A stretch of 64,000 nucleotides of DNA from an uncultured Bacteroidales bacterium (lineage in GTDB: Bacteria > Bacteroidota > Bacteroidia > Bacteroidales > FEN-979), in contig CAIVAT010000096.1 of assembly GCA_903903985.1 (NCBI GenBank), positions 1 to 64,000 of the forward strand, given 5' to 3'. The position numbers were made by a program, and so were the translations under genes. Positions 182-11,791 of the stretch are shown here, piece after piece. Numbering within the stretch: the stretch's first letter is position 1; each line of letters opens with the position of its first letter. Below the pieces are notes generated by a model. That model saw only the letters and a program-made list of their open reading frames with translations. It was not told the DNA's origin and did no database searches.

Positions 182-1021
182 TCACAACATCATATCGGTT
201 ATTTGTACTGCGATCATATCAACAATAATGACCAGGAGCGAAGCCAGTACGACCGCTGAATTTGCAGCAATGCCAACGCTTTCAGTTCCACGACCGGCAT
301 TGTATCCCTTATAGCATCCAACCAGTCCGATGACGGCTCCGAAGAAAAAGGATTTTACAACAGCAGGGAAAAGGTCCATGAAATGTACATGGCCAAATGC
401 CTGGGAGAAAAACAGCACAAATGAAACATCTCCTTTGATATTTGCCCCGGCCCAACTGCCAAATATCCCAAAGGCATCAGCATACAGGATCAATAACGGG
501 ATCATGATGGTTGCGGCCAAAACGCGTGTAACGACCAAAAACCGCATTGGATTGGTGGAGGAGACCTCCATGGCATCAATTTGTTCGGTCACTTTCATCG
601 AACCCAGTTCTGCACCCATGCCCGAACCAATTTTTCCGGCACATATCAGGGCCGTGATCACCGGGCCCATTTCCCTGATGAGCGAAATGGCGACCATTCC
701 GGGCAGCATGGTCACTGCTCCGAAATTAACGAGTACCGGCCGTGATTGAATTGTAAGAACAATCCCCATGATGGCGCCGGTAACAGAAATGAGGGGTAAA
801 GATTTATATCCGATTTGGAAACACTGTCGCAAAAATTCCTTGAATTCAAAATCGCGTGAAAATGTTTCCCTGAAGAGCCGGATGATAAATAAAAAAACAT
901 CGGCAATGTCCGTTAAAAAGTTGCTGGTCTGGACAGTTTTTGCCAAAGTTTTTTCACTGAGCCTGATGGATTGCTCCTTCGCAAAACCCTTCGCTTTCAT
1001 GACAGGATGGAATTTTTTCAT
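182..1021 (-). CDS. mlaE: MlaE-family ABC transporter permease
   Basis: This is a permease of the MlaE (YrbE) family. In Gram-negative bacteria it forms the membrane part of an ABC system that moves phospholipids between the inner and outer membranes. The signature stretch around REMGPVITALICAGKIGSG is present, followed by several hydrophobic helices, giving 279 residues from the chosen start, normal for the family. I chose the ATG at 1021 rather than 1108 because a -7 box (1045-1052, minus strand) lies between them, so a start at 1108 would be upstream of the transcript. The matching ATPase (MlaF) and MCE protein (MlaD) are not in the window; they could lie to the left beyond the tandem repeat. 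The gene is divergent from the DUF6600 gene and carries its own copy of the shared 39-bp element. Confidence 0.9.
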   Translation of the reverse strand: MKKFHPVMKAKGFAKEQSIRLSEKTLAKTVQTSNFLTDIADVFLFIIRLFRETFSRDFEFKEFLRQCFQIGYKSLPLISVTGAIMGIVLTIQSRPVLVNFGAVTMLPGMVAISLIREMGPVITALICAGKIGSGMGAELGSMKVTEQIDAMEVSSTNPMRFLVVTRVLAATIMIPLLILYADAFGIFGSWAGANIKGDVSFVLFFSQAFGHVHFMDLFPAVVKSFFFGAVIGLVGCYKGYNAGRGTESVGIAANSAVVLASLLVIIVDMIAVQITDMML

Positions 1022-1044: not shown

Positions 1045-1110
1045 CAAAATTATGGGCATCGCCCGACCGGTGTGTTACATAACTTTTGTAATAAGTTACA
1101 TGATTCACAC
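1045..1110 (-). promoter_or_regulatory. 39-bp shared operator plus -7 box, copy E (mlaE)
   Basis: On the minus strand the element spans 1110 to 1072. It starts GTGTGAATCATGTAACT and ends AGTTATGTAACAC. After exactly 19 bp comes TAATTTTG (1052-1045), a perfect match to the Bacteroidota -7 consensus TAnnTTTG. Transcription should begin near 1038, 17 bases before the chosen ATG. Four other copies in the window have the same layout. Confidence 0.8.
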
Positions 1111-1157
1111 ATTCAGAATCAGGTTATTAGCGCTTGCGGCATACCGAGGTGCAAAAG

Positions 1158-1223
1158 GTGTGAATGATGTAACTCTTAAGAGGAATTGTGTAACACATCA
1201 GCATCCAAAGCGATGCAATTTTG
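1158..1223 (+). promoter_or_regulatory. 39-bp shared operator plus -7 box, copy A (DUF6600 gene)
   Basis: The element spans 1158-1196: GTGTGAATGATGTAACT, a 9-bp variable spacer, then AATTGTGTAACAC. The two TGTAAC cores (1168-1173 and 1189-1194) are direct repeats 21 bp apart. The -7-like box CAATTTTG is at 1216-1223, 19 bp after the element. It faces away from copy E, so the two promoters form a divergent pair with 47 bp between the elements. Confidence 0.8.
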
Positions 1224-1257
1224 CACCGTAGTAATTTCATCCTGTTAAATGCATCTC

Positions 1258-2610
1258 ATGAAAACCCAAACGAAAATTCTTTCTTTCTTCATTGTACTTA
1301 TCATAATGAGTACCTATACAATGCCGCAAACAGCAACAGCACAGGGAGTCAGTGTGGGATTCCAGGTGTTTTATGATGAATTAAGCCCCTATGGAACCTG
1401 GGTTTATACCTCCGATTATGGATATGTATGGATACCAGATGTCACTCCAGGATTTGTGCCATATTCCACGAACGGATACTGGGTCTTCACCGATGAGGGA
1501 TGGACATGGGTTTCTGATTATTCGTGGGGATGGGCGCCTTTTCATTACGGACGCTGGTATACCGATGTCAATTACGGCCCCATGTGGGTACCGGATAATG
1601 AATGGGGTCCGGGGTGGGTTACCTGGAGGAGATCAGAAGGCTTTTATGGATGGGCTCCGATCGGACCGGGCGTCAGCATCAATTTAGCTTACAGCAATGA
1701 TTATTATGTGCCCAACAATCAATGGACCTTCGTGCGCGGAGGGGATTTTGGAAGAAGGAACATCAATAAATATTATATCAACAACTCTTACAATGTCACG
1801 ATCATCAACAATTCAACGGTAATCAATAATATCCGGACAGACAGACCACACCATGTTACCTATAATGCAGGGCCCGAAAGAACCGAGGTTGAAAATCGTG
1901 CAGGTAAAAGATTTACACCGGTTACCATCCAGGAAAGCAGTAAACCGGGTCAGAATCTGAATAAAAATCAACTTCAGATTTACAGACCCCAGGTACAGCG
2001 GACTACCTCTTCGGGGCAGAAACAAGCTCCGGCAAAAGTGGAGCGGTTGGAAAATGTGAGAACTTCTGAGCAAAGAAGATCTGAAGCTCCTGTCCAAAAG
2101 CCATATCAACCGGGAAAACAACAGCCAACGCTGCAGCAACACCAGGTTCAACCTGCAAAACAACATCCCAAACAACAGCAACAGCAGGCTCAGCCTACGA
2201 AGCAACAACCGGCAAGGCAGCAGCAACAGGCTCAACCTGCAAACCAACAACCGACAAAGCAGCAGCAACAGGCACAACCTGCAAAACAACAGCAGCAGCA
2301 AGCTCAGCCTGCAAAACAACAGCCACAGCAAGCTCAGCCTACGAAGCAACAACCGGCAAGGCAGCAGCCACAGGTTCAACCTGCAAAGCAACAGCAGCAG
2401 CAACAGCAGCATCAAACTCAACCTGCAAAACAACAGCAGCAGCAACAGCAGCATCAAACTCAACCGCCAAAACAACAGCCGCAGAGACAAAATCCGGCTC
2501 AGCCTCCAAAGCAAAATCCACCACAGCCTCAGCAGGTAAGTCCGTCCAATAATGGACAGCAGGACAAGGAATCACAAAAGACAAAACCACCCAAAACCAT
2601 GAGAGGGTAA
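1258..2610 (+). CDS. Secreted DUF6600-like protein with Gln-rich tail
   Basis: An exported protein of unknown function. A signal peptide (MKTQTKILSFFIVLIIMS, cleaved after a TATA-QG type site) is followed at about residues 30-155 by aromatic repeats such as YGTWVYTSDYGYVW, GYWVFTDEGWTWVSDYSWGW and PMWVPDNEWGPGWVTWR, the pattern of the DUF6600/YXWGXW group. Residues about 255-440 are low-complexity Gln/Pro/Lys with recurring AQPAKQQ units. I prefer the ATG at 1258 because it begins the hydrophobic signal peptide directly; an in-frame ATG at 1249 is also possible and both fit the promoter at 1216-1223. The OmpA-type gene follows after a short gap, so the two are probably co-transcribed. The pairing suggests a cell-envelope role, which is inference. 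Confidence 0.85.
   Translation: MKTQTKILSFFIVLIIMSTYTMPQTATAQGVSVGFQVFYDELSPYGTWVYTSDYGYVWIPDVTPGFVPYSTNGYWVFTDEGWTWVSDYSWGWAPFHYGRWYTDVNYGPMWVPDNEWGPGWVTWRRSEGFYGWAPIGPGVSINLAYSNDYYVPNNQWTFVRGGDFGRRNINKYYINNSYNVTIINNSTVINNIRTDRPHHVTYNAGPERTEVENRAGKRFTPVTIQESSKPGQNLNKNQLQIYRPQVQRTTSSGQKQAPAKVERLENVRTSEQRRSEAPVQKPYQPGKQQPTLQQHQVQPAKQHPKQQQQQAQPTKQQPARQQQQAQPANQQPTKQQQQAQPAKQQQQQAQPAKQQPQQAQPTKQQPARQQPQVQPAKQQQQQQQHQTQPAKQQQQQQQHQTQPPKQQPQRQNPAQPPKQNPPQPQQVSPSNNGQQDKESQKTKPPKTMRG
2101..2525 (+). repeat. CAG/CAA-rich coding repeat (poly-Gln)
   Basis: Inside the DUF6600-like gene a run of CAA, CAG, AAG, CCT and GCT codons encodes repeated AQPAKQQ-like units and short pure Gln tracts of up to six residues. 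Units such as CAACCTGCAAAACAACAG recur many times with small changes, so the tract is likely prone to length change by slippage or recombination. Confidence 0.85.
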
Positions 2611-2664
2611 TAATAACGAATCATCAATTGAATGAACTTTTGTATAAACTTAAATATCAGTATT

Positions 2665-4731
2665 ATGAAAACTTTTTATCATCAATTATCCAAGGTAATG
2701 TTTGTCATCCTTGTGACATTAATCCCTTGGGCATCCATCGCACAGGAAGGGCCTAAAGCAATATTGGAGCGGACAAATACTGCCCAGTGTTACAAATACT
2801 GGTCGGTCGGGGTTTTTGGCGGGCTGATGCAGTTCAATGGAGACTTGTCAAAAAATTTATGGGTCAACCTCTATCCAAACAGTATTGGCTATAATTTAGG
2901 ATTTGTTGCCACAAAGCAATTTTCACGCGTGATTGGTGTCCGGGCAAGGTTTGCCTATGGGAAGATTCATAGTGATGTGGAAAATAAATGGGTTTGGGAT
3001 TATAAAGATGGCAATGGTGTGCCCCTGAAAATTACCCAGAGGTTCCATTCCTCAATTCTTGAAACCGACCTGCAGCTCACGGTAAACTGGTTAAATTGGA
3101 TCCTGGGTTACAAACCCGAGCGCATTTTCTCTTCTTATCTTATCGCTGGTATTGGTATTGATCAATCCAGGGGGAATAAGCAGGATGTGAACCTGGGAAA
3201 GGATATCAGTTTTCTTGGTAAAAAAGGAGACTTATTAAATGTCGGGAATACAAATGGCATGGATGGACGTGATATGGAATTCAAAGCAACCGCCGGCCTT
3301 GGTTTCGATTTCAATCTTAGCAAACACTTTTCCGTCCCCATTGAATTTCTCTTTAGATGGCAGAATGCCGATCTTCTTGATATGACAAAAGGAGGTTCGA
3401 TGGGTGTGGTCAACGACATGTATAGCTCCGGCACAATTGGCATAACCTACAAATTTGGTTATTCTTGCCCAAAAGTCATCTTAAAGGAGCCAGTAATGGT
3501 ACCGGTAACTGTTGTCACCATCGACCCTACGGTCAGGTTTTCTGTTATTGCCCCCAGGGAAATTCCTGCTGAGCGCAATGTAAGGGAGATATTTCCCCTT
3601 CGTAACTATATATTTTTCGATTTAGGATCAAAGGAGATACCTGACCGCTATGTTTTACTCGCGAAAGACCAGGTGAAAGACTTTAAAGAAGATCAGGTTC
3701 AGTTGTTTACACCTAAAAATCTGTCAGGCCGTTCGCAGCGGCAAATGACTGTATATTATAATGTTATAAATATCCTCGGTGACCGTTTGGGTAAAAATCC
3801 GACAGCTACTGTCAGATTGACCGGAGCATCGATGGAAGGACAGGAAGATGGCAAAGCCATGGCGGAGTCGGTCAAGAGATACCTGGTAAGTATAGTTGGA
3901 ATAGAAGCAACCAGGATCACAACAGAAGGCCGCGTTAAACCGAGGATCCCATCTGAACAACCTGGTGGAACCAAGGAACTTGACCTCCTTCGTGAAGGAG
4001 ACCGCAGGGTTTCTATCTGGAGCACTTCACCGGCATTGCTGATGGAGTTCGTAAGCGGGGAAGATGCCCCACTGAAGCCGGTGGAGATCATCGATGTTCA
4101 AAAAGCACCTTATGACAGTTATGTCACATTCAATGTTGAAGGAGCGAACAAGGCTTTCACCTCATGGTCGTTGGAAATCAAGGATAATAACGGAGCGATA
4201 CAAAATTTTGGACCCTACTCCCAGGAACAGGTAAGTATGCCGGGAAAATCAATTCTTGGCAATCAGCCTGAAGGCACTTACCAGGTGAAGATGATCGGTC
4301 AGACCAAAAGCGGCAAGACGGTTATAAAGGATACTACTGTGACCATGGTACTTTGGAACCCACCCGTAAATGAGGAAGTAATGCGATTCAGCGTCATTTT
4401 TGAATTCAACGAATCAAAAGCCATCGCCTTGTATGAAAAATATCTCAGCGATATCGTGGTACCAAAGATCCCTGAGGGCGGTACCGTTATTATTCATGGC
4501 TATACCGATATCATCGGGGATGAATTGTACAATCAGACATTGTCATTGGCAAGAGCGAACGATGTGAGGAACATCATGGTAAATGCGCTGACAAAGGCAG
4601 GGAAAAACAATGTTAAATTTGAAGTTTACGGATTCGGAGAGGACCAGAAGTTATCGCCGTTTGAAAACAAGTTCCCGGAGGAACGGTTTTATAACCGGAC
4701 GGTCATCATTGATATCATGCCTAAAAAATAA
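2665..4731 (+). CDS. Outer-membrane protein with OmpA-like C-terminal domain
   Basis: The protein has about 688 residues. A signal peptide (ends near WASIAQEG) is followed by an aromatic beta-rich N-terminal half (from YWSVGVFGGLMQFNGDLSKN) that looks like an outer-membrane barrel. A central segment (IFPLRNYIFFDLGSKEIPDR) resembles a degenerate OmpA fold. At the C-terminus an OmpA-like domain has the expected Asp and Arg peptidoglycan-binding pattern (IHGYTDIIGDELYNQTLSLA, then RANDVRNIM). The start is taken at the ATG at 2665, since upstream in-frame codons add only a non-signal extension. The gene follows the DUF6600 gene by 54 bp and is followed by a strong terminator, so the pair forms one unit. 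Expected role: linking outer membrane and peptidoglycan. Confidence 0.85.
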   Translation: MKTFYHQLSKVMFVILVTLIPWASIAQEGPKAILERTNTAQCYKYWSVGVFGGLMQFNGDLSKNLWVNLYPNSIGYNLGFVATKQFSRVIGVRARFAYGKIHSDVENKWVWDYKDGNGVPLKITQRFHSSILETDLQLTVNWLNWILGYKPERIFSSYLIAGIGIDQSRGNKQDVNLGKDISFLGKKGDLLNVGNTNGMDGRDMEFKATAGLGFDFNLSKHFSVPIEFLFRWQNADLLDMTKGGSMGVVNDMYSSGTIGITYKFGYSCPKVILKEPVMVPVTVVTIDPTVRFSVIAPREIPAERNVREIFPLRNYIFFDLGSKEIPDRYVLLAKDQVKDFKEDQVQLFTPKNLSGRSQRQMTVYYNVINILGDRLGKNPTATVRLTGASMEGQEDGKAMAESVKRYLVSIVGIEATRITTEGRVKPRIPSEQPGGTKELDLLREGDRRVSIWSTSPALLMEFVSGEDAPLKPVEIIDVQKAPYDSYVTFNVEGANKAFTSWSLEIKDNNGAIQNFGPYSQEQVSMPGKSILGNQPEGTYQVKMIGQTKSGKTVIKDTTVTMVLWNPPVNEEVMRFSVIFEFNESKAIALYEKYLSDIVVPKIPEGGTVIIHGYTDIIGDELYNQTLSLARANDVRNIMVNALTKAGKNNVKFEVYGFGEDQKLSPFENKFPEERFYNRTVIIDIMPKK

Positions 4732-4762
4732 GATTCGCGGTTGACATAATAAATTCCAAATC

Positions 4763-4805
4763 AAAAAGGCTGCCTGAAGATTTACCCAGGCAGCCTTTTC
4801 TTCTT
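4763..4805 (+). terminator. Rho-independent terminator after the OmpA-type gene
   Basis: A perfect 9-bp stem (GGCTGCCTG at 4768-4776 with CAGGCAGCC at 4787-4795) with a 10-nt loop is followed by TTTTCTTCTTTT and preceded by an A-run that extends the stem. Confidence 0.9.
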
Positions 4806-4821
4806 TTAACAGTGAGGAAAT

Positions 4822-4887
4822 GTGTGAATCATACAACTCATTTCCAAAATTATATAACACTTGCTTTGATTATGTTAGCGATTTTTG
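4822..4887 (+). promoter_or_regulatory. 39-bp shared operator plus -7 box, copy D (DUF3494 gene)
   Basis: The element spans 4822-4860, beginning GTGTGAATCATACAACT and ending AATTATATAACAC. It is the most diverged of the five copies (TACAAC and TATAAC cores), but keeps the 39-bp length, the 21-bp repeat period and the 19-bp distance to the -7-like box GATTTTTG at 4880-4887. The coding start lies 41 bp further on. Confidence 0.7.
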
Positions 4888-4928
4888 TCATGCTGTGAAA
4901 ATTCCTTCACGCATTAAGTCAAAACAAA

Positions 4929-6809
4929 ATGAAAATACAGCTACTTAAGGTAATTCCAGTAGTTCTTATGCTCTTGTTACCAACATTAATTTATGCACAG
5001 GCTCCTCCTTTGGGGACTGCTGCTGGATTTGTTCTTTTTGCAACTGTAGGGGCGGTTACCAACTCCGGCATTTCGCAGGTTACCGGGAATGTTGGCACCA
5101 ACAGCGGTTCCAGCACCGGTTTCGGAAATGTGAACGGTGTCATGCATGACAATGATGGCGCCAGCGCACAATGCGCAGCAGATCTACTGATTGCATACAA
5201 CCAGTTGAACAGCACCATCCCGAATTTCTTTCCTGCACCCTTGCTTGGAAACGGACAAATGCTGAATGCCGGGGTTTACTCCATATCAAGTCCGGCAACA
5301 TTAAACCTGGACCTTACATTAAATGCACAAGGAAATTCAAATGCAGTGTTTATTTTTCAGATACAGGGAGCATTTTCCACGAATGCCAATTCAAAAGTTA
5401 ATTTAATCAACGGCGCGATGGCATGCAACGTGTTCTGGAAAGTGGAAGGCCTGGTGAGTATGGCTTCGGGAACGACCATGAGGGGCACAATTATTGCAAA
5501 CAATGCGGCAATTAACATGAACACCGGCGACACCCTCGAAGGGAGGGCGCTATCTACTACCGGCGCTGTTACTACCGACGGAGTGATGGCATACACACCC
5601 ATCGGTTGCGGAAGTCCTGTTCTTACCGGGCCGGCGGCCCCGGTACTTGGCTCAGCGGAATGCTATGCGCTGTTCTCCTCCAATGGCGCGGTTGCAAACA
5701 CAGGTGTAACGTATGTTACGGGTGATGTTGGAACGAATGTCGGTTTGACCATCGGCTATGATCCTTTGCTGGTAACCGGGACCATTCATCCCATTCCCGA
5801 TGTTTCAACAGCGCAATGTGCAGCCGATTTGCTGATTGCATATAATTATCTGAACACTTTGCCTTACGATATAGAATTGTTGTACCCTGCCCAGTTTGGC
5901 AACGACCTTGTACTTACCCCACATACGTACTTGATAAATGCGGCTACCGTATTTACCGATAAAGTTTATCTAGATGCTCAGGGCGATGCGAATGCTGTTT
6001 TTGTAATAAAGATTAACGGGGCCCTTTCAACCAGCACCTATTCAAAAGTCAAGCTTATTAACGGTGCACAGGCAAAAAATGTGTACTGGAAGATTGAAGG
6101 TGCCGTGAACATCGATACTTACTCGGTGTTCAGGGGAACAATCATTTGTAACAATGGTGCACTTGGTGCACTGGCTACAGGAGCCGTGCTTGAAGGCAGG
6201 GCCCTGACAACCACAGGTGCTTTAAGCACTTCTGCTGTTACCGTCACTATGCCTCCAGGCTGTTGCAACTCGGTTGTGGTGCCTGTTAGCACCCAGGTAA
6301 ACGGTGTTACTGGTGTGGGTGAAACTGTATGTAAAAATGCATCCGAAACCATCACGGTTGCGGGAAGCGGAACGACATACGAGGTTCAAAACGGCGGCAG
6401 TGTCCACATGATTGCCGGCCAGAACATTTTCTTTCTTGAGGGTACCAGGGTATTTGCCGGGGGATATCTGCATGGATTCATTACTTTAACACAAGAATAT
6501 TGTTGTTCAATCATGGGGCTCAAAGCCAGTGATGTTACAGAAGTCATTCCGGAAATGGAATCCGGGTCTTTCTTCAAAATATATCCGAATGCCACGAGCG
6601 ACAAGTTCTATGTTGAATTGATTTCCAGCTTCAGGGATAAAAAATCAGTGGTTCAGATCTTTGGAATGGTCGGTGGATTAATTCAAAAGCAGGAGGTGAC
6701 TGGGAGTGACCGCTATGAATTTTCGCTTGGAGGGAACGCATCGGGTATTTATTTTATCCGTGTGATGGCCGGTGATCGTCTTGAAACAAAGAAGATTATT
6801 AAGAAATAA
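4929..6809 (+). CDS. Secreted protein with two DUF3494 (ice-binding-like) domains and T9SS sorting domain
   Basis: A 626-residue secreted protein. A signal peptide (residues 1-24, ending YAQAPP) is followed by two tandem DUF3494 domains at about residues 30-235 and 240-450. Both show the family pattern VTGNVGTNSG or VTGDVGTNVG, then QCAADLLIAYN, FIFQIQGAFST or VIKINGALST, and NVFWKVEG or NVYWKIEG. DUF3494 is the beta-solenoid fold of bacterial ice-binding proteins and of some adhesins. A linker with a GGYLHGFIT-type stretch leads to a C-terminal sorting domain from about residue 545 (FFKIYPNATSDKFYV, ending ETKKIIKK) for type IX secretion to the surface. It has its own shared-motif promoter and a terminator. 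Whether it binds ice or serves adhesion or envelope protection cannot be told from sequence. Confidence 0.88.
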   Translation: MKIQLLKVIPVVLMLLLPTLIYAQAPPLGTAAGFVLFATVGAVTNSGISQVTGNVGTNSGSSTGFGNVNGVMHDNDGASAQCAADLLIAYNQLNSTIPNFFPAPLLGNGQMLNAGVYSISSPATLNLDLTLNAQGNSNAVFIFQIQGAFSTNANSKVNLINGAMACNVFWKVEGLVSMASGTTMRGTIIANNAAINMNTGDTLEGRALSTTGAVTTDGVMAYTPIGCGSPVLTGPAAPVLGSAECYALFSSNGAVANTGVTYVTGDVGTNVGLTIGYDPLLVTGTIHPIPDVSTAQCAADLLIAYNYLNTLPYDIELLYPAQFGNDLVLTPHTYLINAATVFTDKVYLDAQGDANAVFVIKINGALSTSTYSKVKLINGAQAKNVYWKIEGAVNIDTYSVFRGTIICNNGALGALATGAVLEGRALTTTGALSTSAVTVTMPPGCCNSVVVPVSTQVNGVTGVGETVCKNASETITVAGSGTTYEVQNGGSVHMIAGQNIFFLEGTRVFAGGYLHGFITLTQEYCCSIMGLKASDVTEVIPEMESGSFFKIYPNATSDKFYVELISSFRDKKSVVQIFGMVGGLIQKQEVTGSDRYEFSLGGNASGIYFIRVMAGDRLETKKIIKK

Positions 6810-6828
6810 ATGAAAAGGTTAATATGGA

Positions 6829-6868
6829 CGCGGGGTTGCCTTAAATGAACAAGGCAACCTCGTGTTTG
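6829..6868 (+). terminator. Rho-independent terminator after the DUF3494 gene
   Basis: GGTTGCCTT (6834-6842) pairs with AAGGCAACC (6851-6859) around an 8-nt loop. Flanking CG pairs extend the stem and a short T-rich tail follows. Confidence 0.75.
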
Positions 6869-7046
6869 TTGTCTAAGGAATGCCTGTCACCTGGATGATT
6901 GAATCCGGATATACCAGGTCGAAACACACTACATATGAAAAACTTGACAAATTGAGAAAAATATATTGTTTTGGTTAAAATTTAGGAGTTTATCCAATTT
7001 ATCCGAGTTTTGGAATTCTGAAGTAAAATAATATTCACATTTATTC

Positions 7047-7875
7047 ATGTATAAATTAAACGAATAGAAAAAACACTTACTCATTGCATTAATTGCAGGG
7101 ATTCCGTTTTTAATGCCAACCATGAATTTCGGTCAGGCTCCTGACTTGAAGACAGCAGCCAATTTTGCGTTATTTACCTCAGCCGGAGCATTTAATGAAT
7201 TGGGAAGTGCCTCATCTGTTACCGGCGATGTTGGTACTGCTGTGGGTGCATCTAACGCATTTCCTCCGGGAACGTTGGTTGGACAAAAACATGTGGCAGA
7301 TGGTGTTGCTATTCAGGCAGGCGCAGATGTGCTTGCTGCGTATAGCTATTTGCACGGACTTACATGCGGTGTTGGCCATGAAGTTTTGTTAGGAGGTGGC
7401 GAGGTTCTTGCATCAAACATTTACTGCCTTAATGCCGCTTCAACCTTAACGGGAAATTTGACGTTAGACGGGGGGGGGGGGGAATCCCAATTCCATATTC
7501 ATTTTCAAGATTGACGGCGCTTTTGCCAGGAGTGCATCATCAGAAGTTATAGTGACTAATTCAGCATCCTTATGTAATGTTTATTGGCAGGTAAACGGAC
7601 AAGTTGACCTTGGACCTGGTTCTACCTTCCTGGGCACAATCGTTGTCAATGGGGCAATAAACTTATTAGCAGAAGCCACGCTTCATAGCAGAGGCCTTTC
7701 ATCTGCCGGGGCTATTTCCATGTATAACAATACGGTTACGCTCGCATCATGCGCAGCAGCACCATCACCAATCCCCATTTTATCCGAATGGGCCCTGATC
7801 GTCCTGGGAATTTTTCTACTTGGCGTAGGTGTTGTGTATATTCTACGTAGAAGACAGTCTCCACTCGGCGTATAA
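7047..7875 (+). pseudogene. Disrupted DUF3494 protein with IPTL-type C-terminal anchor
   Basis: A second, single-domain DUF3494 gene that cannot be read through. From the ATG at 7047 the frame reads a six-residue start, then TAG at 7065-7067, and continues as a clear signal peptide (KKHLLIALIAGIPFLMP) and DUF3494 sequence. At 7470-7482 a run of 13 G shifts the frame: the upstream frame ends at the TGA at 7512-7514, while the correct frame resumes at 7483 (NPNSIFIFKIDGAFAR) and runs to 7875. With 12 G the two halves would join. The C-terminus (IPILSEWALIVLGIFLLG, then basic residues) matches the IPTL-CTERM type of sorting signal, unlike the T9SS tail of its neighbour. Either this is a decaying gene with two lesions, or the G tract is slippage-prone or a sequencing error; the TAG argues for decay. 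Confidence 0.8.
7470..7482 (+). repeat. Homopolymeric G13 tract
   Basis: Thirteen consecutive G inside the disrupted DUF3494 gene. Twelve G would restore the reading frame. Such tracts are typical both of slipped-strand phase variation and of assembly errors. Confidence 0.95.
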
Positions 7876-7900
7876 TTTATAAATGGCCAGTTTTTTAATT

Positions 7901-7934
7901 ATGCTCCTGCCTGGATAAAGGCGGGAGCATTTTG
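7901..7934 (+). terminator. Rho-independent terminator after the DUF3494 pseudogene
   Basis: ATGCTCCTGCCT (7901-7912) pairs with AGGCGGGAGCAT (7919-7930), with one G-U pair and a 6-nt loop, followed by TTTTG. The rest of the 7935-8059 gap shows nothing recognisable. Confidence 0.85.
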
Positions 7935-8059
7935 TATATAGTTTTCTGTCTATTGTAATTAATCAATCTTTTCTCCTTGTTTACTTGATCATCCTGAAAG
8001 AGTTGATCCTTTAAAGGAAATTGTATTGTCATTTACAATGTGCCTTCGTTTTTATATAT

Positions 8060-8125
8060 GTGTGAATGATGTAACTCTATTGTTGAATTGTGTAACACTA
8101 TTGGAACTGATACGACTCAACTTTG
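8060..8125 (+). promoter_or_regulatory. 39-bp shared operator plus -7 box, copy B (stress-like operon)
   Basis: The element spans 8060-8098 and its conserved ends are identical to copies A and C (GTGTGAATGATGTAACT and AATTGTGTAACAC). The -7-like box CAACTTTG lies at 8118-8125, again 19 bp after the element. The first gene of the operon starts 32 bp later. Confidence 0.8.
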
Positions 8126-8157
8126 CATGATGAAAATTCATTCATAAATAAAAGATC

Positions 8158-8604
8158 ATGAAAATGAAAAAATCAATATTAGCATTTGCTGCATGCAGCC
8201 TTATAACCGGTGCATTTTTCACCAGTTGCAATACCCCTTCGCAAAAAGTTGAAAATGCCCAGGAAAATGTTGTTGAAGCAAATAAGGATCTAGCCAAGGC
8301 CAATGAGGAATATATCGCGGATATAGCCACTTACCGGCAGGAAACTGCTGTTGCGGTCGCTGCCAATGAAGAGAGCATCACCGAGCTCAACGCAAAGATG
8401 GCAAAGGATAAAAGAGCTGCCAGGGCCGACTTTAAAAAGAAAATTGCTGACCTGGAGCAAAAAAACAGGGATATGAAAATGAAGATGGATAATTACAAAG
8501 AAGAAGGAAAAGACAAGTGGGTCATTTTCAAAGCCGAATTCAGCCATGACATGAAGGAATTGGGGAAGGCGTTTAAAGACTTAGCTGTTAACAACGTTAA
8601 ATAG
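8158..8604 (+). CDS. Small coiled-coil lipoprotein, function unknown
   Basis: A 148-residue lipoprotein. The signal peptide ends in a lipobox (AFFTSC) with the acylated Cys at residue 24. The remainder is almost entirely charged and helical, with long stretches such as ENAQENVVEANKDLAKANEE and KKKIADLEQKNRDMKMKMDN that predict a coiled coil. I do not recognise a named family. It is the first gene of a compact run of six genes that starts at the shared promoter at 8060-8125, and its partners are other small envelope proteins. A periplasmic spacer or stress lipoprotein role is inference. Confidence 0.8.
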   Translation: MKMKKSILAFAACSLITGAFFTSCNTPSQKVENAQENVVEANKDLAKANEEYIADIATYRQETAVAVAANEESITELNAKMAKDKRAARADFKKKIADLEQKNRDMKMKMDNYKEEGKDKWVIFKAEFSHDMKELGKAFKDLAVNNVK

Positions 8605-8627
8605 ACTGCAATATAAAAATCAGCACA

Positions 8628-9164
8628 ATGAAAACTTCAAGGCTAATCGAGGCAGGAATTATATTGTTTCTTGCAAGTGCAATGCAGGCGCAGGTTTCAG
8701 TGAGTGTGAACATTGGATCGCCCCCGATGTGGGGTCCAGCCGGATATGCTTCAGTTCAGTATTATTATCTGCCCGATGTTGAAGCCTATTACGATGTCCG
8801 GTCGTCGATGTTCATTTATTTTGGAGGCGGGGCCTGGATTCACAGAGCTTATCTCCCGGCACGTTATAAAGGGTATGATTTATACCGCGGATATAAAGTT
8901 GTCATGCCCAACTATTATGGGAAAACTCCCTACAGCCATTTCAAAGAGCATAAAATGAAATATGGGAAAGGGTATCACGGGCAAGAGCAACGAACGATCG
9001 GGGAACGACCCGGAAACGGAAACCCAGGGGCGAAAAATTATAACGATGGCAATCACAACAGTAAAGAAGGAGGCCATGATAATAATCAAAGCCACGGACA
9101 TGGTCATGATAAGAATATGAATGAGGATCATGGGCATGGTGGCGGAAACGATAAAAAGAAATAA
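8628..9164 (+). CDS. Exported Tyr/Gly-rich protein with His-rich tail
   Basis: A 178-residue exported protein of unknown function. A signal peptide ends at about residue 21 (SAMQA-QV). The middle part is aromatic (YASVQYYYLPDVEAYYDVRS, WIHRAYLPARYKGYDLYRGY). The last 40 residues are rich in His, Gly and Asn (GHGHDKNMNEDHGHGG), a composition that could bind metal ions. It lies 23 bp after the coiled-coil lipoprotein gene in the same operon, which ends in an NRAMP-like metal transporter, so a link to metal handling is possible but unproven. Confidence 0.8.
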   Translation: MKTSRLIEAGIILFLASAMQAQVSVSVNIGSPPMWGPAGYASVQYYYLPDVEAYYDVRSSMFIYFGGGAWIHRAYLPARYKGYDLYRGYKVVMPNYYGKTPYSHFKEHKMKYGKGYHGQEQRTIGERPGNGNPGAKNYNDGNHNSKEGGHDNNQSHGHGHDKNMNEDHGHGGGNDKKK

Positions 9165-9192
9165 TAATTAATTATCAATAAAAACCAATATT

Positions 9193-9471
9193 ATGAACTC
9201 AGGAAAAGTATTTTTAGGCTTATTGGCAGGTGTCGCAGTAGGCGCAACTTTGGGAATTTTATTCGCACCCGGTAAAGGTTCAAAGACACGGAAGAAAATT
9301 TCCCGGAAAAGGGAAGACTTTGCAGATGAATTAGAAGACAAATTCAATGGTTTCATCGACAGCATCAATAAGAACTTCTCAACTGCGGAAGACACAGCCG
9401 CACGCAGGGTGAAACAAGGAAAACAAAAAGTGGAAGACATTGAAACAGAAGTTATTTCGGCTGTAAAATAA
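9193..9471 (+). CDS. YtxH-domain small membrane protein
   Basis: A 92-residue protein of the YtxH (general stress protein) type. One membrane helix at residues 5-25 (KVFLGLLAGVAVGATLGILF) is followed by APGKGSKTRKKI, the family hallmark, and a charged helical tail. In Bacillus, members are general stress proteins of the sigma-B regulon; the biochemical role is unknown. It sits third in the operon, 5 bp before the next gene. Confidence 0.85.
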   Translation: MNSGKVFLGLLAGVAVGATLGILFAPGKGSKTRKKISRKREDFADELEDKFNGFIDSINKNFSTAEDTAARRVKQGKQKVEDIETEVISAVK

Positions 9472-9475
9472 AACC

Positions 9476-9817
9476 ATGGAAACCCCGGCAAGCTCATTCG
9501 AATCGTTATTCGAGAGAATTGAAGCCTACAGTAAAACAACATATGAGCTGTCGAAGCTCAGGTTGCTGGAGACCACCACCATTGTCGTCAGCGCATTGAT
9601 ACCGCGGTTTTTTGTCCTCGTCATGATGGCGCTGTTTGCCTTGGTTTTAACCTTTGGTATCGCGCTGCTGGTGGGGGAGTGGCTCGGAAAATATTATTAC
9701 GGTTTTTTTGTGGTTGCAGCTTTTTACCTCATTGCTGGCATCCTATTGCATTTTTTTCTGCACAAATGGATTAAAAACCCTGTTAGCGATTTAATCATTA
9801 AACAAGCTCTTCAATAG
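9476..9817 (+). CDS. Two-helix membrane protein (phage-holin-like/DUF1469-like)
   Basis: A 113-residue inner-membrane protein with a charged N-terminal helix (residues 8-30) and two long hydrophobic segments at about 38-65 and 72-98 (IALLVGEWLGKYYYGFFVVA between them). Such proteins are often labelled holin-X or DUF1469-like, but no lysis genes are nearby. The context of YtxH, lipoprotein and CsbD genes fits a stress-related envelope role instead. The gene starts 5 bp after ytxH. Confidence 0.75.
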   Translation: METPASSFESLFERIEAYSKTTYELSKLRLLETTTIVVSALIPRFFVLVMMALFALVLTFGIALLVGEWLGKYYYGFFVVAAFYLIAGILLHFFLHKWIKNPVSDLIIKQALQ

Positions 9818-9825
9818 GTCATATC

Positions 9826-10224
9826 ATGCAAACAATAAATTCATTAACCGATCTCAGAGAGGCTATTTTTATCCTGGAAATGCAGCGGAATGATGAAGCA
9901 AATATGCTTAGGGAAAAATTCCATCTTGCTATCGACAGCATGCAGCCAGTCAATCTTATTAAAAGTACCTTCAAAGATGTAGTCAGTTCCCCTGATTTAC
10001 CCGGTCACCTCTTAAGCACATCTGCCGGGCTGGCTACCGGCATGCTGACCAGGATCGTCATCAGCAGCATCACGAAAAATCCTGTCAAAAGGCTTATCGG
10101 CAGGGCATTGATGTATGGGCTTACAAACCTGGCCATGAATAATCCTGAAACCGTTAAATCATTGGGCAAAGGAATAATAAAGATTGTGAGGGGTAAGCAG
10201 GAAGACCGAGTTTATCCCAAATGA
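9826..10224 (+). CDS. Hypothetical protein of the stress-like operon
   Basis: A 132-residue protein I cannot assign. The N-terminal 45 residues are soluble and helical (LREAIFILEMQRNDEANMLR). A central weakly hydrophobic part (HLLSTSAGLATGMLTRIVIS) and a second one (LIGRALMYGLTNLAMNN) may associate with the membrane. The gene starts 9 bp after the two-helix membrane protein, and its last 4 bp overlap the start of the transporter gene (ATGATG junction at 10221), so translation is probably coupled. Confidence 0.7.
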   Translation: MQTINSLTDLREAIFILEMQRNDEANMLREKFHLAIDSMQPVNLIKSTFKDVVSSPDLPGHLLSTSAGLATGMLTRIVISSITKNPVKRLIGRALMYGLTNLAMNNPETVKSLGKGIIKIVRGKQEDRVYPK

Positions 10225-11480
10225 TGAATAATTCAAATAAATTTATTCATTTCTGGAAAATACTTGGGCCCGGACTTGTTACAGGTGCAAGCGATGATGA
10301 TCCTTCGGGTATTGCAACCTACTCGCAGGCAGGTGCTGCATACGGGCTTTCAACGCTCTGGACTTCACTGATTACGTTTCCGCTCATGGCTTCCATCCAG
10401 GAAATGTGTGCAAGGATCGGGCTGGTCACTTCACATGGGTTGGCAGGAACGCTGAAATCAAATTATTCAAAACCTGTCTTGTATTTGATGCTGCTGTTTA
10501 GTTTTCCTGCCATCGTCATGAACATTGGTGCCGACATTGCCGGAATGGGCGCAGTTGGCAATCTGTTATTTCCATCAATTCATGCGATATATTTCAGCGT
10601 CGTGTTTACGATCATCCTTCTGGGGTTGATTATTTACCTTCCATATCAGAAAATTGCCGCTATTCTGAAATACCTGTGCATCATCCTGCTGGTTTACCTG
10701 ATCGTTCCGTTTCTTTACAAACAAAATGTTACTGCAATTTTAAAATCCACTTTTATCCCGACGATCAGGTTTGATAAAAACTTCATCAGCATCCTTGTTG
10801 CCATTCTCGGAACAACAATTTCACCGTATCTGTTCTTTTGGCAGGCAACAATGGTATCAGAGGATGTTATACAAAAGAAAAAGCACCTGGTGGTGAATAA
10901 AAGAATTATCCACGAAATGAAACAAGACGTTGATTTTGGCATGTTATTTTCAAACCTTGTCATGTTCTTCATCATTCTCACCACAGGAACGGTTTTATTC
11001 AACGCAGGTATTCACCAGATTGACACGGTTGAACAGGCTGCCCAGGCATTGAAACCCCTGGCTGGCAACCTGGCATATTTACTGTTTGCTGTTGGGGTCA
11101 TCGGCACTGGTTTTTTGGCCATCCCTGTTCTAAGTGGTTCTCTATCATACATCATTACGGAAACATTTGGCTGGGAAAAAGGATTGGATAAAAAATTCAA
11201 TAAAGCAAAAGCATTTTATTTCATCATAGCCATTTCCTTGATACTAGGTTTATTGATGCAATACATTGGCCTTTCGCCAATCAAAGCGCTGATATATTCA
11301 GCCATTCTGTACGGATTGACCGCCCCTGTGCTGATTGCCATCATTCTGCATATTTCCAACAATAAAAGGATCATGGGGAAATTCACCAATGGAAAAATTT
11401 CCAATATCCTGGGGTTTGCCACATTGATCCTGATGACCGTGGCTGCCGTTATTCTGATTTACATGCAGTTCGTGGGATGA
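10221..11480 (+). CDS. NRAMP-like divalent metal transporter with altered metal-site motifs
   Basis: A 419-residue membrane protein with about 11 hydrophobic segments and the NRAMP start (ILGPGLVTGASDDDPSGIAT). Canonical NRAMP carriers bind Mn2+ or Fe2+ through a DPGN motif in helix 1 and a Met-Pro-His-Asn motif in helix 6. Here helix 1 reads D27-P-S-G, without the Asn, and helix 6 reads TTISPYLFFWQA, without the Met and His. The fold is therefore NRAMP-like but the substrate may not be a transition metal; NRAMP-related Mg2+ transporters also lack the Met. It is the last gene of the six-gene operon from 8158, overlapping the preceding gene by 4 bp. Confidence 0.82.
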   Translation: MMNNSNKFIHFWKILGPGLVTGASDDDPSGIATYSQAGAAYGLSTLWTSLITFPLMASIQEMCARIGLVTSHGLAGTLKSNYSKPVLYLMLLFSFPAIVMNIGADIAGMGAVGNLLFPSIHAIYFSVVFTIILLGLIIYLPYQKIAAILKYLCIILLVYLIVPFLYKQNVTAILKSTFIPTIRFDKNFISILVAILGTTISPYLFFWQATMVSEDVIQKKKHLVVNKRIIHEMKQDVDFGMLFSNLVMFFIILTTGTVLFNAGIHQIDTVEQAAQALKPLAGNLAYLLFAVGVIGTGFLAIPVLSGSLSYIITETFGWEKGLDKKFNKAKAFYFIIAISLILGLLMQYIGLSPIKALIYSAILYGLTAPVLIAIILHISNNKRIMGKFTNGKISNILGFATLILMTVAAVILIYMQFVG

Positions 11481-11505
11481 ATGCAATAAGCAGGAACCAT
11501 CAAAG

Positions 11506-11571
11506 GTGTGAATGATGTAACTCTTACAGGGAATTGTGTAACACAACACAGGAATAAGTTAAGGACCTTTG
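11506..11571 (+). promoter_or_regulatory. 39-bp shared operator plus -7 box, copy C (CsbD gene)
   Basis: The element spans 11506-11544 with conserved ends identical to copies A and B. The -7-like box GACCTTTG lies at 11564-11571, again 19 bp away. It starts only 25 bp after the stop of the transporter gene, so the CsbD gene has its own promoter of the same class as the operon before it. Confidence 0.8.
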
Positions 11572-11605: not shown

Positions 11606-11791
11606 ATGAACACTACGGAAGTAAAAGGAAACTGGAATGAGCAGAAAGGGAAACTCAAACAGAAATTCGCAGTCCTGACGGACAATGACCTGATGTTTAA
11701 TGAAGGCAAAAAAGAGGAGATGTTAGGCAGACTTCAAGTCAAGCTTGGCAAAAGCAAAGAAGAATTGCACAAAATTATTGCAGCTCTTTAA
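11606..11791 (+). CDS. CsbD-family stress protein
   Basis: A 61-residue protein with the CsbD hallmark: VKGNWNEQKGKLKQKF at the N-terminus, then a four-helix type charged sequence (LMFNEGKKEEMLGRLQVKLG). CsbD proteins are small, abundant and stress-induced (sigma-B dependent in Bacillus), with unknown biochemical function. It forms its own transcription unit between the shared-motif promoter and a terminator. Confidence 0.92.
   Translation: MNTTEVKGNWNEQKGKLKQKFAVLTDNDLMFNEGKKEEMLGRLQVKLGKSKEELHKIIAAL

Follow-up and report, generated by a model that had tools for sequence, protein, structure and literature searches.

A direct-repeat element before envelope and stress genes of Bacteroidia and a small AraC/XylS-family protein as its candidate regulator

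Elements and genes in the window

The window analysed here is a 64-kb stretch (64,000 nucleotides) of the genome of an uncultured Bacteroidales bacterium (GenBank assembly GCA_903903985.1, contig CAIVAT010000096.1, positions 1 to 64,000). It contains five copies of a 39-bp element, each followed by a -7 promoter box, which a preliminary description of the same DNA had read as a regulon of five members controlled through a direct repeat. These elements, the larger set of sites to which they belong and the protein that probably acts on them are the subject of this paper.

All five elements are present at the coordinates and on the strands given in that description, and the gap between element and box is exactly 19 bp in each. 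Four match its pattern without a mismatch, and the copy at 4822-4860 has two; the next-best place in the window has nine mismatches. The box had been written as TAnnTTTG, but the form actually shared by the five 8-bp boxes is NAnnTTTG, with the TA start found in the first box only, and the bounds of 39 bp were drawn slightly short, conservation spanning about -2 to +42. The gene names MlaE, DUF6600, OmpA, DUF3494 (Ice_binding), Nramp and CsbD are all backed by Pfam.

Element 1 (1072..1110, minus strand; no mismatches; E 1.6e-14 with the sequence profile described below) is located 5' of an MlaE permease gene (182..1021, minus strand; Pfam MlaE, 1.4e-70), the ATG of which lies 50 bp past the element; its -7 box, TAATTTTG, occupies 1045..1052 on the same strand. 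The contig end beyond this gene (1-180) is a tandem repeat of CCCTGTTACCCTGTCA-like units. Element 2 (1158..1196, plus strand; no mismatches; E 5.7e-15), with the box CAATTTTG at 1216..1223 (plus), precedes a DUF6600 gene (1249..2610, plus; Pfam DUF6600, 6.8e-30), with which an OmpA-family gene (2632..4731, plus; Pfam OmpA, 2.2e-10) is probably cotranscribed. The diverged element 3 (4822..4860, plus; two mismatches; E 3.8e-15) and its box GATTTTTG (4880..4887, plus) are followed by a gene for a secreted ice-binding-like (DUF3494) protein with a Por sorting tail (4929..6809, plus; Pfam Ice_binding, 2.2e-77, and Por_Secre_tail, 2.5e-9). A second ice-binding-like gene (7113-7875, plus) is broken into two open reading frames (ORFs), 7113-7514 and 7552-7875, around a long G run near 7470. 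Both ORFs match PF11999, and the element scan found no copy before this gene; a frameshift, an assembly error or a phase-variable tract are possible explanations for the break.

Element 4 (8060..8098, plus; no mismatches; E 2.8e-15), with the box CAACTTTG at 8118..8125 (plus), precedes an operon-like run of genes. The run is headed by an ORF at 8158..8604 (plus) that has no Pfam match and was labelled lipoprotein-like by eye. Its remainder (8628..11480, plus), which would be cotranscribed with the first gene, consists of an unknown ORF (8628-9164), a YtxH gene (9193-9471; Pfam YtxH, 5.5e-17), a holin-like ORF with a weak match below the Pfam cut-off (9476-9817), another unknown ORF (9826-10224) and an Nramp gene (10221-11480; Pfam Nramp, 4.1e-75), all on the plus strand. 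Element 5 (11506..11544, plus; no mismatches; E 3.6e-15) and its box GACCTTTG (11564..11571, plus) are followed by a CsbD gene (11606..11791, plus; Pfam CsbD, 4e-13).

Site set and promoter geometry

The element is not confined to the window. In the source genome (G000; 5.2 Mb, 87% complete, with the window on contig C96), 25 sites are found at up to three mismatches, as compared with none for the reversed pattern used as a control. A sequence-only profile built from these 25 pattern-found sites matches 31 genome sites at E<=2.4e-7, comprising the 25 and six more, and the next match reaches only 5.7e-4. Thus, the regulon proposed in the preliminary description is real but about six times larger than the five members assumed. 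The same description had suggested a genome-wide search with a matrix. The 25 sites found with the pattern keep the fixed spacing to the box: NAnnTT stands at 19 bp in 24 of the 25 sites, with the strict form NAnnTTTG in 19, and one box is found at 18 bp.

When named genomes were scanned for exact matches, at least 114 motif-bearing stretches (loci) were obtained, of which, to judge from their titles, 110 belong to Bacteroidota, one to an Ignavibacteria metagenome-assembled genome and three to a bin called uncultured bacterium. The carriers among Bacteroidota include Bacteroidales, Prolixibacteraceae, Flavobacterium, Lutibacter, Saprospiraceae and Arcicella; cultured environmental carriers are, for example, Prolixibacter bellariivorans, Maribellus luteus and Flavobacterium fluvii. 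The profile matches in 35 of 61 relatives of the source genome, with up to 35 sites in one relative, and in 42 of 149 genomes sampled from the class. The 114 named loci contain 224 unique sites at up to four mismatches, 220 of them with full flanks.

In these 220 sites, the strict box NAnnTTTG is located 19 bp past the element in 135 cases and 18 bp past it in 11, while every other offset accounts for at most two; the remaining sites lack a strict box over the length that was scanned. When the columns of the 220 sites are read in the 19-bp register, the A of the box is present in 95% and the TT in 99%. Box and spacer were absent from the search pattern with which the sites had been picked. The direct repeat with a period of 21 bp proposed in the preliminary description also scores best in a column comparison (0.363, the next offset reaching 0.261; none of 2000 column permutations equalled it), although the 220 sites had been picked by a pattern containing both half-site cores and the repeat test is therefore not independent of that pattern. 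The repeated core can be written as ARTnRTGTAAC. An organisation as an inverted repeat was considered and rejected: even along its best axis it scores only 0.285, below the 0.363 reached by the direct repeat.

In a paper on Flavobacterium psychrophilum, the -7 box is placed at -12 to -5 (PMC9723704). The second copy of the repeat ends 19 bp before this box and therefore occupies the -33 region, i.e., a class II position. The class II activator geometry suggested earlier for the window is supported by this fixed, promoter-proximal layout.

An ATG-initiated ORF of at least 45 codons follows 218 of 235 sites in the named loci (position weight matrix, PWM, score >=25) at a distance of 20-260 bp, with a median of 66 bp. 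Among the families listed for these 218 first downstream ORFs, the choice of which was mechanical and may have taken the wrong frame in places, are Ice_binding (20), CsbD (20), OmpA (13), MlaE (10), HTH_18 (7), Cupin_2 (at least 7) and DUF6600 (6). Further targets in the source genome are genes for PAP2, PepSY-like, haem-binding, Usp, BON, patatin, HlyD, SnoaL-like, SDR, M6 peptidase and DUF748 proteins, a rubrerythrin-like protein and a second CsbD. This list supports the envelope and stress character already ascribed to the targets in the window, and its gene content suits an envelope or general stress response.

The sites are sometimes clustered. In one genome of the class sample, at least 18 of 30 sites lie within 74 kb (G154:C56:73619-147728), a stretch that is perhaps a stress-gene island. 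The source genome contains two similar clusters (L030 and L031, on contigs C146 and C105) with genes for a SnoaL-like lipoprotein, an HlyD/ABC exporter and patatin and with several elements each; weaker elements, separated from their boxes by about 20 bp, are found before the patatin genes.

A small AraC/XylS-family protein as candidate regulator

The preliminary description had stated that the window encodes no candidate regulator and had suggested to look for one, of the LytTR type or another, next to further copies of the element. The first statement holds for the AraC family, as none of the nine HTH_18 matches in the source genome (eight of them over the cut-off) is located on C96, where the search covered this family only. 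As to neighbours of further copies, sites on contigs C109 and C183 of the source genome lie next to small genes of the AraC family, the one on C109 being encoded at L028:8737-9318. Both encoded proteins exceed the Pfam cut-offs for HTH_18 and HTH_AraC, the C-terminal AraC-type helix-turn-helix. The candidate regulators are 186-193 amino acids long and consist of an HMA-like N-terminus and an AraC DNA-binding domain; HTH_18 was found in all 24 regulator relatives (E<=1). In the source genome, one small gene lies between the upstream site and the AraC gene, and genes for a PAS hybrid kinase and a receiver protein follow it. The adjacent response regulator was rejected as the DNA-binding protein, as it consists of a receiver domain only and has no DNA-binding domain by Pfam. 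At another locus (L174:1720-4998), the AraC regulator, a PAS hybrid histidine kinase and a receiver are naturally fused, and an element is found 53 bp upstream.

The association holds in both directions. Strong AraC relatives are present in 28 of the 114 loci, which had been chosen by the motif alone, and AraC is the commonest DNA-binding family recognised by eye in the neighbourhood list of these loci; receiver-only (18 loci), cold-shock-like (7) and CbpM-like (6) genes, also labelled by eye, recur as well. Conversely, when loci were chosen by the protein, a site was found within 1.5 kb in 19 of 22 loci of close relatives (E<=3.3e-76; L210-L231), in one of four intermediate loci (L232-L235) and in none of four loci of distant paralogues (L236-L239). 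Class-wide, protein-chosen loci from other families contain a site in 20 of 29 cases at PWM>=12 and in 18 of 29 at PWM>=18, as compared with no match in 177 mononucleotide-shuffled control sequences.

Site and regulator gene are repeatedly found in one of two arrangements. In 16 of 58 AraC ORFs, a co-directional site lies just upstream, which is an arrangement of the autoregulation type. In 19 others, the site is located at the 3' end of the gene with the promoter facing the next gene, and in 15 of these 19 the first six bases of the element (GTGTGA, or variants such as ATGTGA and CTGTAA) constitute the last codon and the stop codon of the regulator gene. This overlap allowed a test that does not depend on the motif search: the sequences of 35 regulators were anchored at the stop codon and compared with 24 fixed positions of the element. 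On average 13.1 positions agree, a figure that drops to 7.0-7.5 when the anchor is shifted by one or two bases and to 7.3 when the sequences are shuffled. The 35 are those outside the upstream group, delimited by a phmmer score under 292, a cut-off that was set after the list had been seen. After removal of three ORFs longer than 215 amino acids, the other 55 AraC ORFs were placed on a tree, the bootstrap of which had not settled and the root of which is arbitrary. Here, 14 of 15 rows of the upstream type fall in one clade of 19 rows (support 96/84), which also includes five rows without a site, and 3'-end sites are scattered over several other branches.

Gene and motif also tend to occur in the same genomes. 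A close regulator (E<=1e-40) is present in 26 of the 35 relatives with the motif and in 1 of the 26 without it (Fisher 1.2e-8). Within the genus, the figures are 11 of 14 and 0 of 5, respectively (p 0.005), and among the 149 genomes drawn from the class a close regulator at E<=1e-60 is found in 25 of 42 with the motif and in 13 of 107 without it (Fisher 1.2e-8). These Fisher values ignore shared ancestry, and the cut-offs of 1e-40 and 1e-60 were picked after the lists had been seen.

Such caveats, like the dependence of the repeat test on the search pattern, weigh against assigning the element to the AraC-type protein, and so do a number of exceptions. Nine of the 35 motif-bearing relatives lack a close and complete regulator (G002, G004, which has a fragment only, G014, G020, G032, G036, G040, G049 and G058). 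Of the 42 genomes in the class sample that have the motif, 17 lack a regulator at E<=1e-60, and six have no match even at 1e-30 (G065, G102, G121, G150, G177 and G184). Incomplete assembly applies to some of these genomes, but G020, G032, G040, G058, G121 and G184 are rated 98-99% complete, and G036 (85% complete) combines ten sites at E<=0.01 with the absence of any HTH_18 match. Another AraC-family gene serving the exception genomes was also considered and rejected: in the 11 that were examined, there is no HTH_18 gene within about 9 kb of any site. Conversely, the motif is absent at E<=1e-4 from 13 of the 38 genomes in the class sample that do have a close regulator, and no site at PWM>=18 adjoins 23 of the 58 regulator ORFs. 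In four of the exception genomes, a site stands before a gene that, as labelled by eye, is typical of the regulon, namely CsbD (G002), ice-binding-like (G040), Usp (G058) and patatin (G020); in G032 the gene behind the site is sulfatase-like. The exceptions may be due to contigs missing from the assemblies, to divergence of the regulator or to the presence of a second one. G184 has fourteen mostly weak sites (E<=0.01), several of which cover the profile only from about position 17 on, and, given these weak sites and the lack of a close regulator, a variant motif under another regulator is possible there.

Interpretation and relation to known systems

Taken together, the elements are best read as operators of a Bacteroidia-wide envelope and stress regulon under the control of small AraC/XylS-family class II activators, a reading to which we assign a probability of roughly 80%. 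Two regulator molecules, or one dimer, would bind to the direct repeat, the half-sites of which have the core ATGTAAC and are spaced by 21 bp; the proximal half-site would take the place of the -33 element, 19 bp before the sigmaA -7 box NAnnTTTG. The regulator would then recruit RNA polymerase, and activation is thus predicted rather than repression. The genes controlled, presumably in response to a stress signal, would include those for CsbD, ice-binding-like secreted proteins, OmpA, MlaE, DUF6600, Usp, BON and rubrerythrin-like proteins and, in many cases, the gene of the regulator itself.

Among the alternatives, the one that survives best is that a DNA-binding protein outside the AraC family occupies the element and that the AraC genes are merely common members of the regulon. 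The relatives with sites but no close AraC gene, at least nine in number, would be accounted for in this way. The PAS hybrid kinase and receiver genes that follow the AraC gene in the source genome, the receiver genes of 18 of the 114 loci and the recurrent cold-shock-like and CbpM-like genes also speak for it. However, no other DNA-binding family was recognised as often in the cluster list, the co-occurrence of AraC gene and motif persists within the genus, and the site at the stop codon is kept in regulators from many families. We therefore consider this alternative improbable.

LytTR-type response regulators, such as AgrA and AlgR, were the guess of the preliminary description, and their operators are likewise direct repeats with a period of about two helical turns. 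Operators with direct repeats at a 21-bp spacing are, however, typical of AraC/XylS activators as well. All 61 relatives have LytTR genes, and in G019 such a gene ends 36 bp before a site (at least one such case was found among the matches listed). Nevertheless, the 114 motif loci, with their 4378 ORFs, gave no match to a profile of 12 LytTR domains, and all 26 motif-free genomes possess LytTR genes too, so that their presence does not co-vary with the motif. The neighbourhood of the motif fits AraC instead, and control by a LytTR protein appears very unlikely. Equally hard to credit is that the element is an extended promoter of an alternative, extracytoplasmic function (ECF) sigma factor: the fixed spacing to the -7 box and the strict orientation would suit it, but about 45 bp of conservation in the form of a 21-bp direct repeat exceeds a sigma -35 box, and the box behind it agrees with the sigmaA consensus TAnnTTTG, whereas a CGT box is part of the ECF-type motif in F. 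psychrophilum (PMC9723704).

By the features tested, the candidate regulator belongs to the AraC/XylS family; that it binds the element and activates transcription is predicted. With activators such as AraC at araI, XylS at Pm and MarA/SoxS, it shares an AraC DNA-binding domain, here over the Pfam cut-off, direct-repeat half-sites 21 bp apart with the proximal one at the -35/-33 region, and sites before its own genes. It differs from them in its small size and its short HMA-like N-terminus; the N-terminus of AraC is a cupin-type sugar-binding domain. Other differences are that it would work at the -7-box promoters of Bacteroidota, with about 30 sites in the source genome, and that, in some copies, the stop codon of the regulator gene itself lies within a site. 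The presence of CsbD and Usp among the targets is reminiscent of the general stress regulons of sigmaB and RpoS; in contrast to these, a transcription factor seems to act here on sigmaA-type promoters, and no alternative sigma factor is implied. In the portions of open-licence papers covered by a literature search, there was no mention of a common regulator of CsbD, DUF3494 ice-binding-like, DUF6600 and MlaE genes in Bacteroidota, nor of this element or regulator.

The N-terminus was examined as a possible sensor. Pfam HMA matches 2 of 24 regulator members, under the cut-off and with a best E of 0.017, and neither of the two AraC proteins of the source genome; the CopZ model scores E 0.069, far below its cut-off. 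When a profile of 22 N-termini of 66 residues was compared with PDB sequences, the top ten of 23 matches were copper or heavy-metal proteins, with a best E of just 0.0029. The first Cys of the CxxC motif is missing in both source-genome copies (MVSARC and MVSNRC), while several relatives retain MVCIRC. Metal sensing by the source-genome copies is doubtful because of this missing Cys and the weak HMA match; their lone Cys could, speculatively, be redox-active. A CxxC-bearing relative in G043 (L249:4698-5270) is located near a gene labelled CusA-like efflux by eye and has no site at PWM>=18, which suggests a metal-linked sister branch. It is conceivable, but on balance doubtful, that a Bacteroidia-wide envelope and general stress response is run by a small HMA-AraC one-component activator rather than by a stress sigma factor, and that this activator descends from a metal-linked regulator which, after the loss of the CxxC ligand, came to sense another cue, such as thiol/redox or envelope state, in partnership with a PAS hybrid kinase.

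Now that the operator, the layout of the promoters and a candidate regulator have been described, about thirty promoters of the source genome, and as many as 35 sites of one relative, become testable together in cultured strains, and the motif gives annotators a predictive tool.

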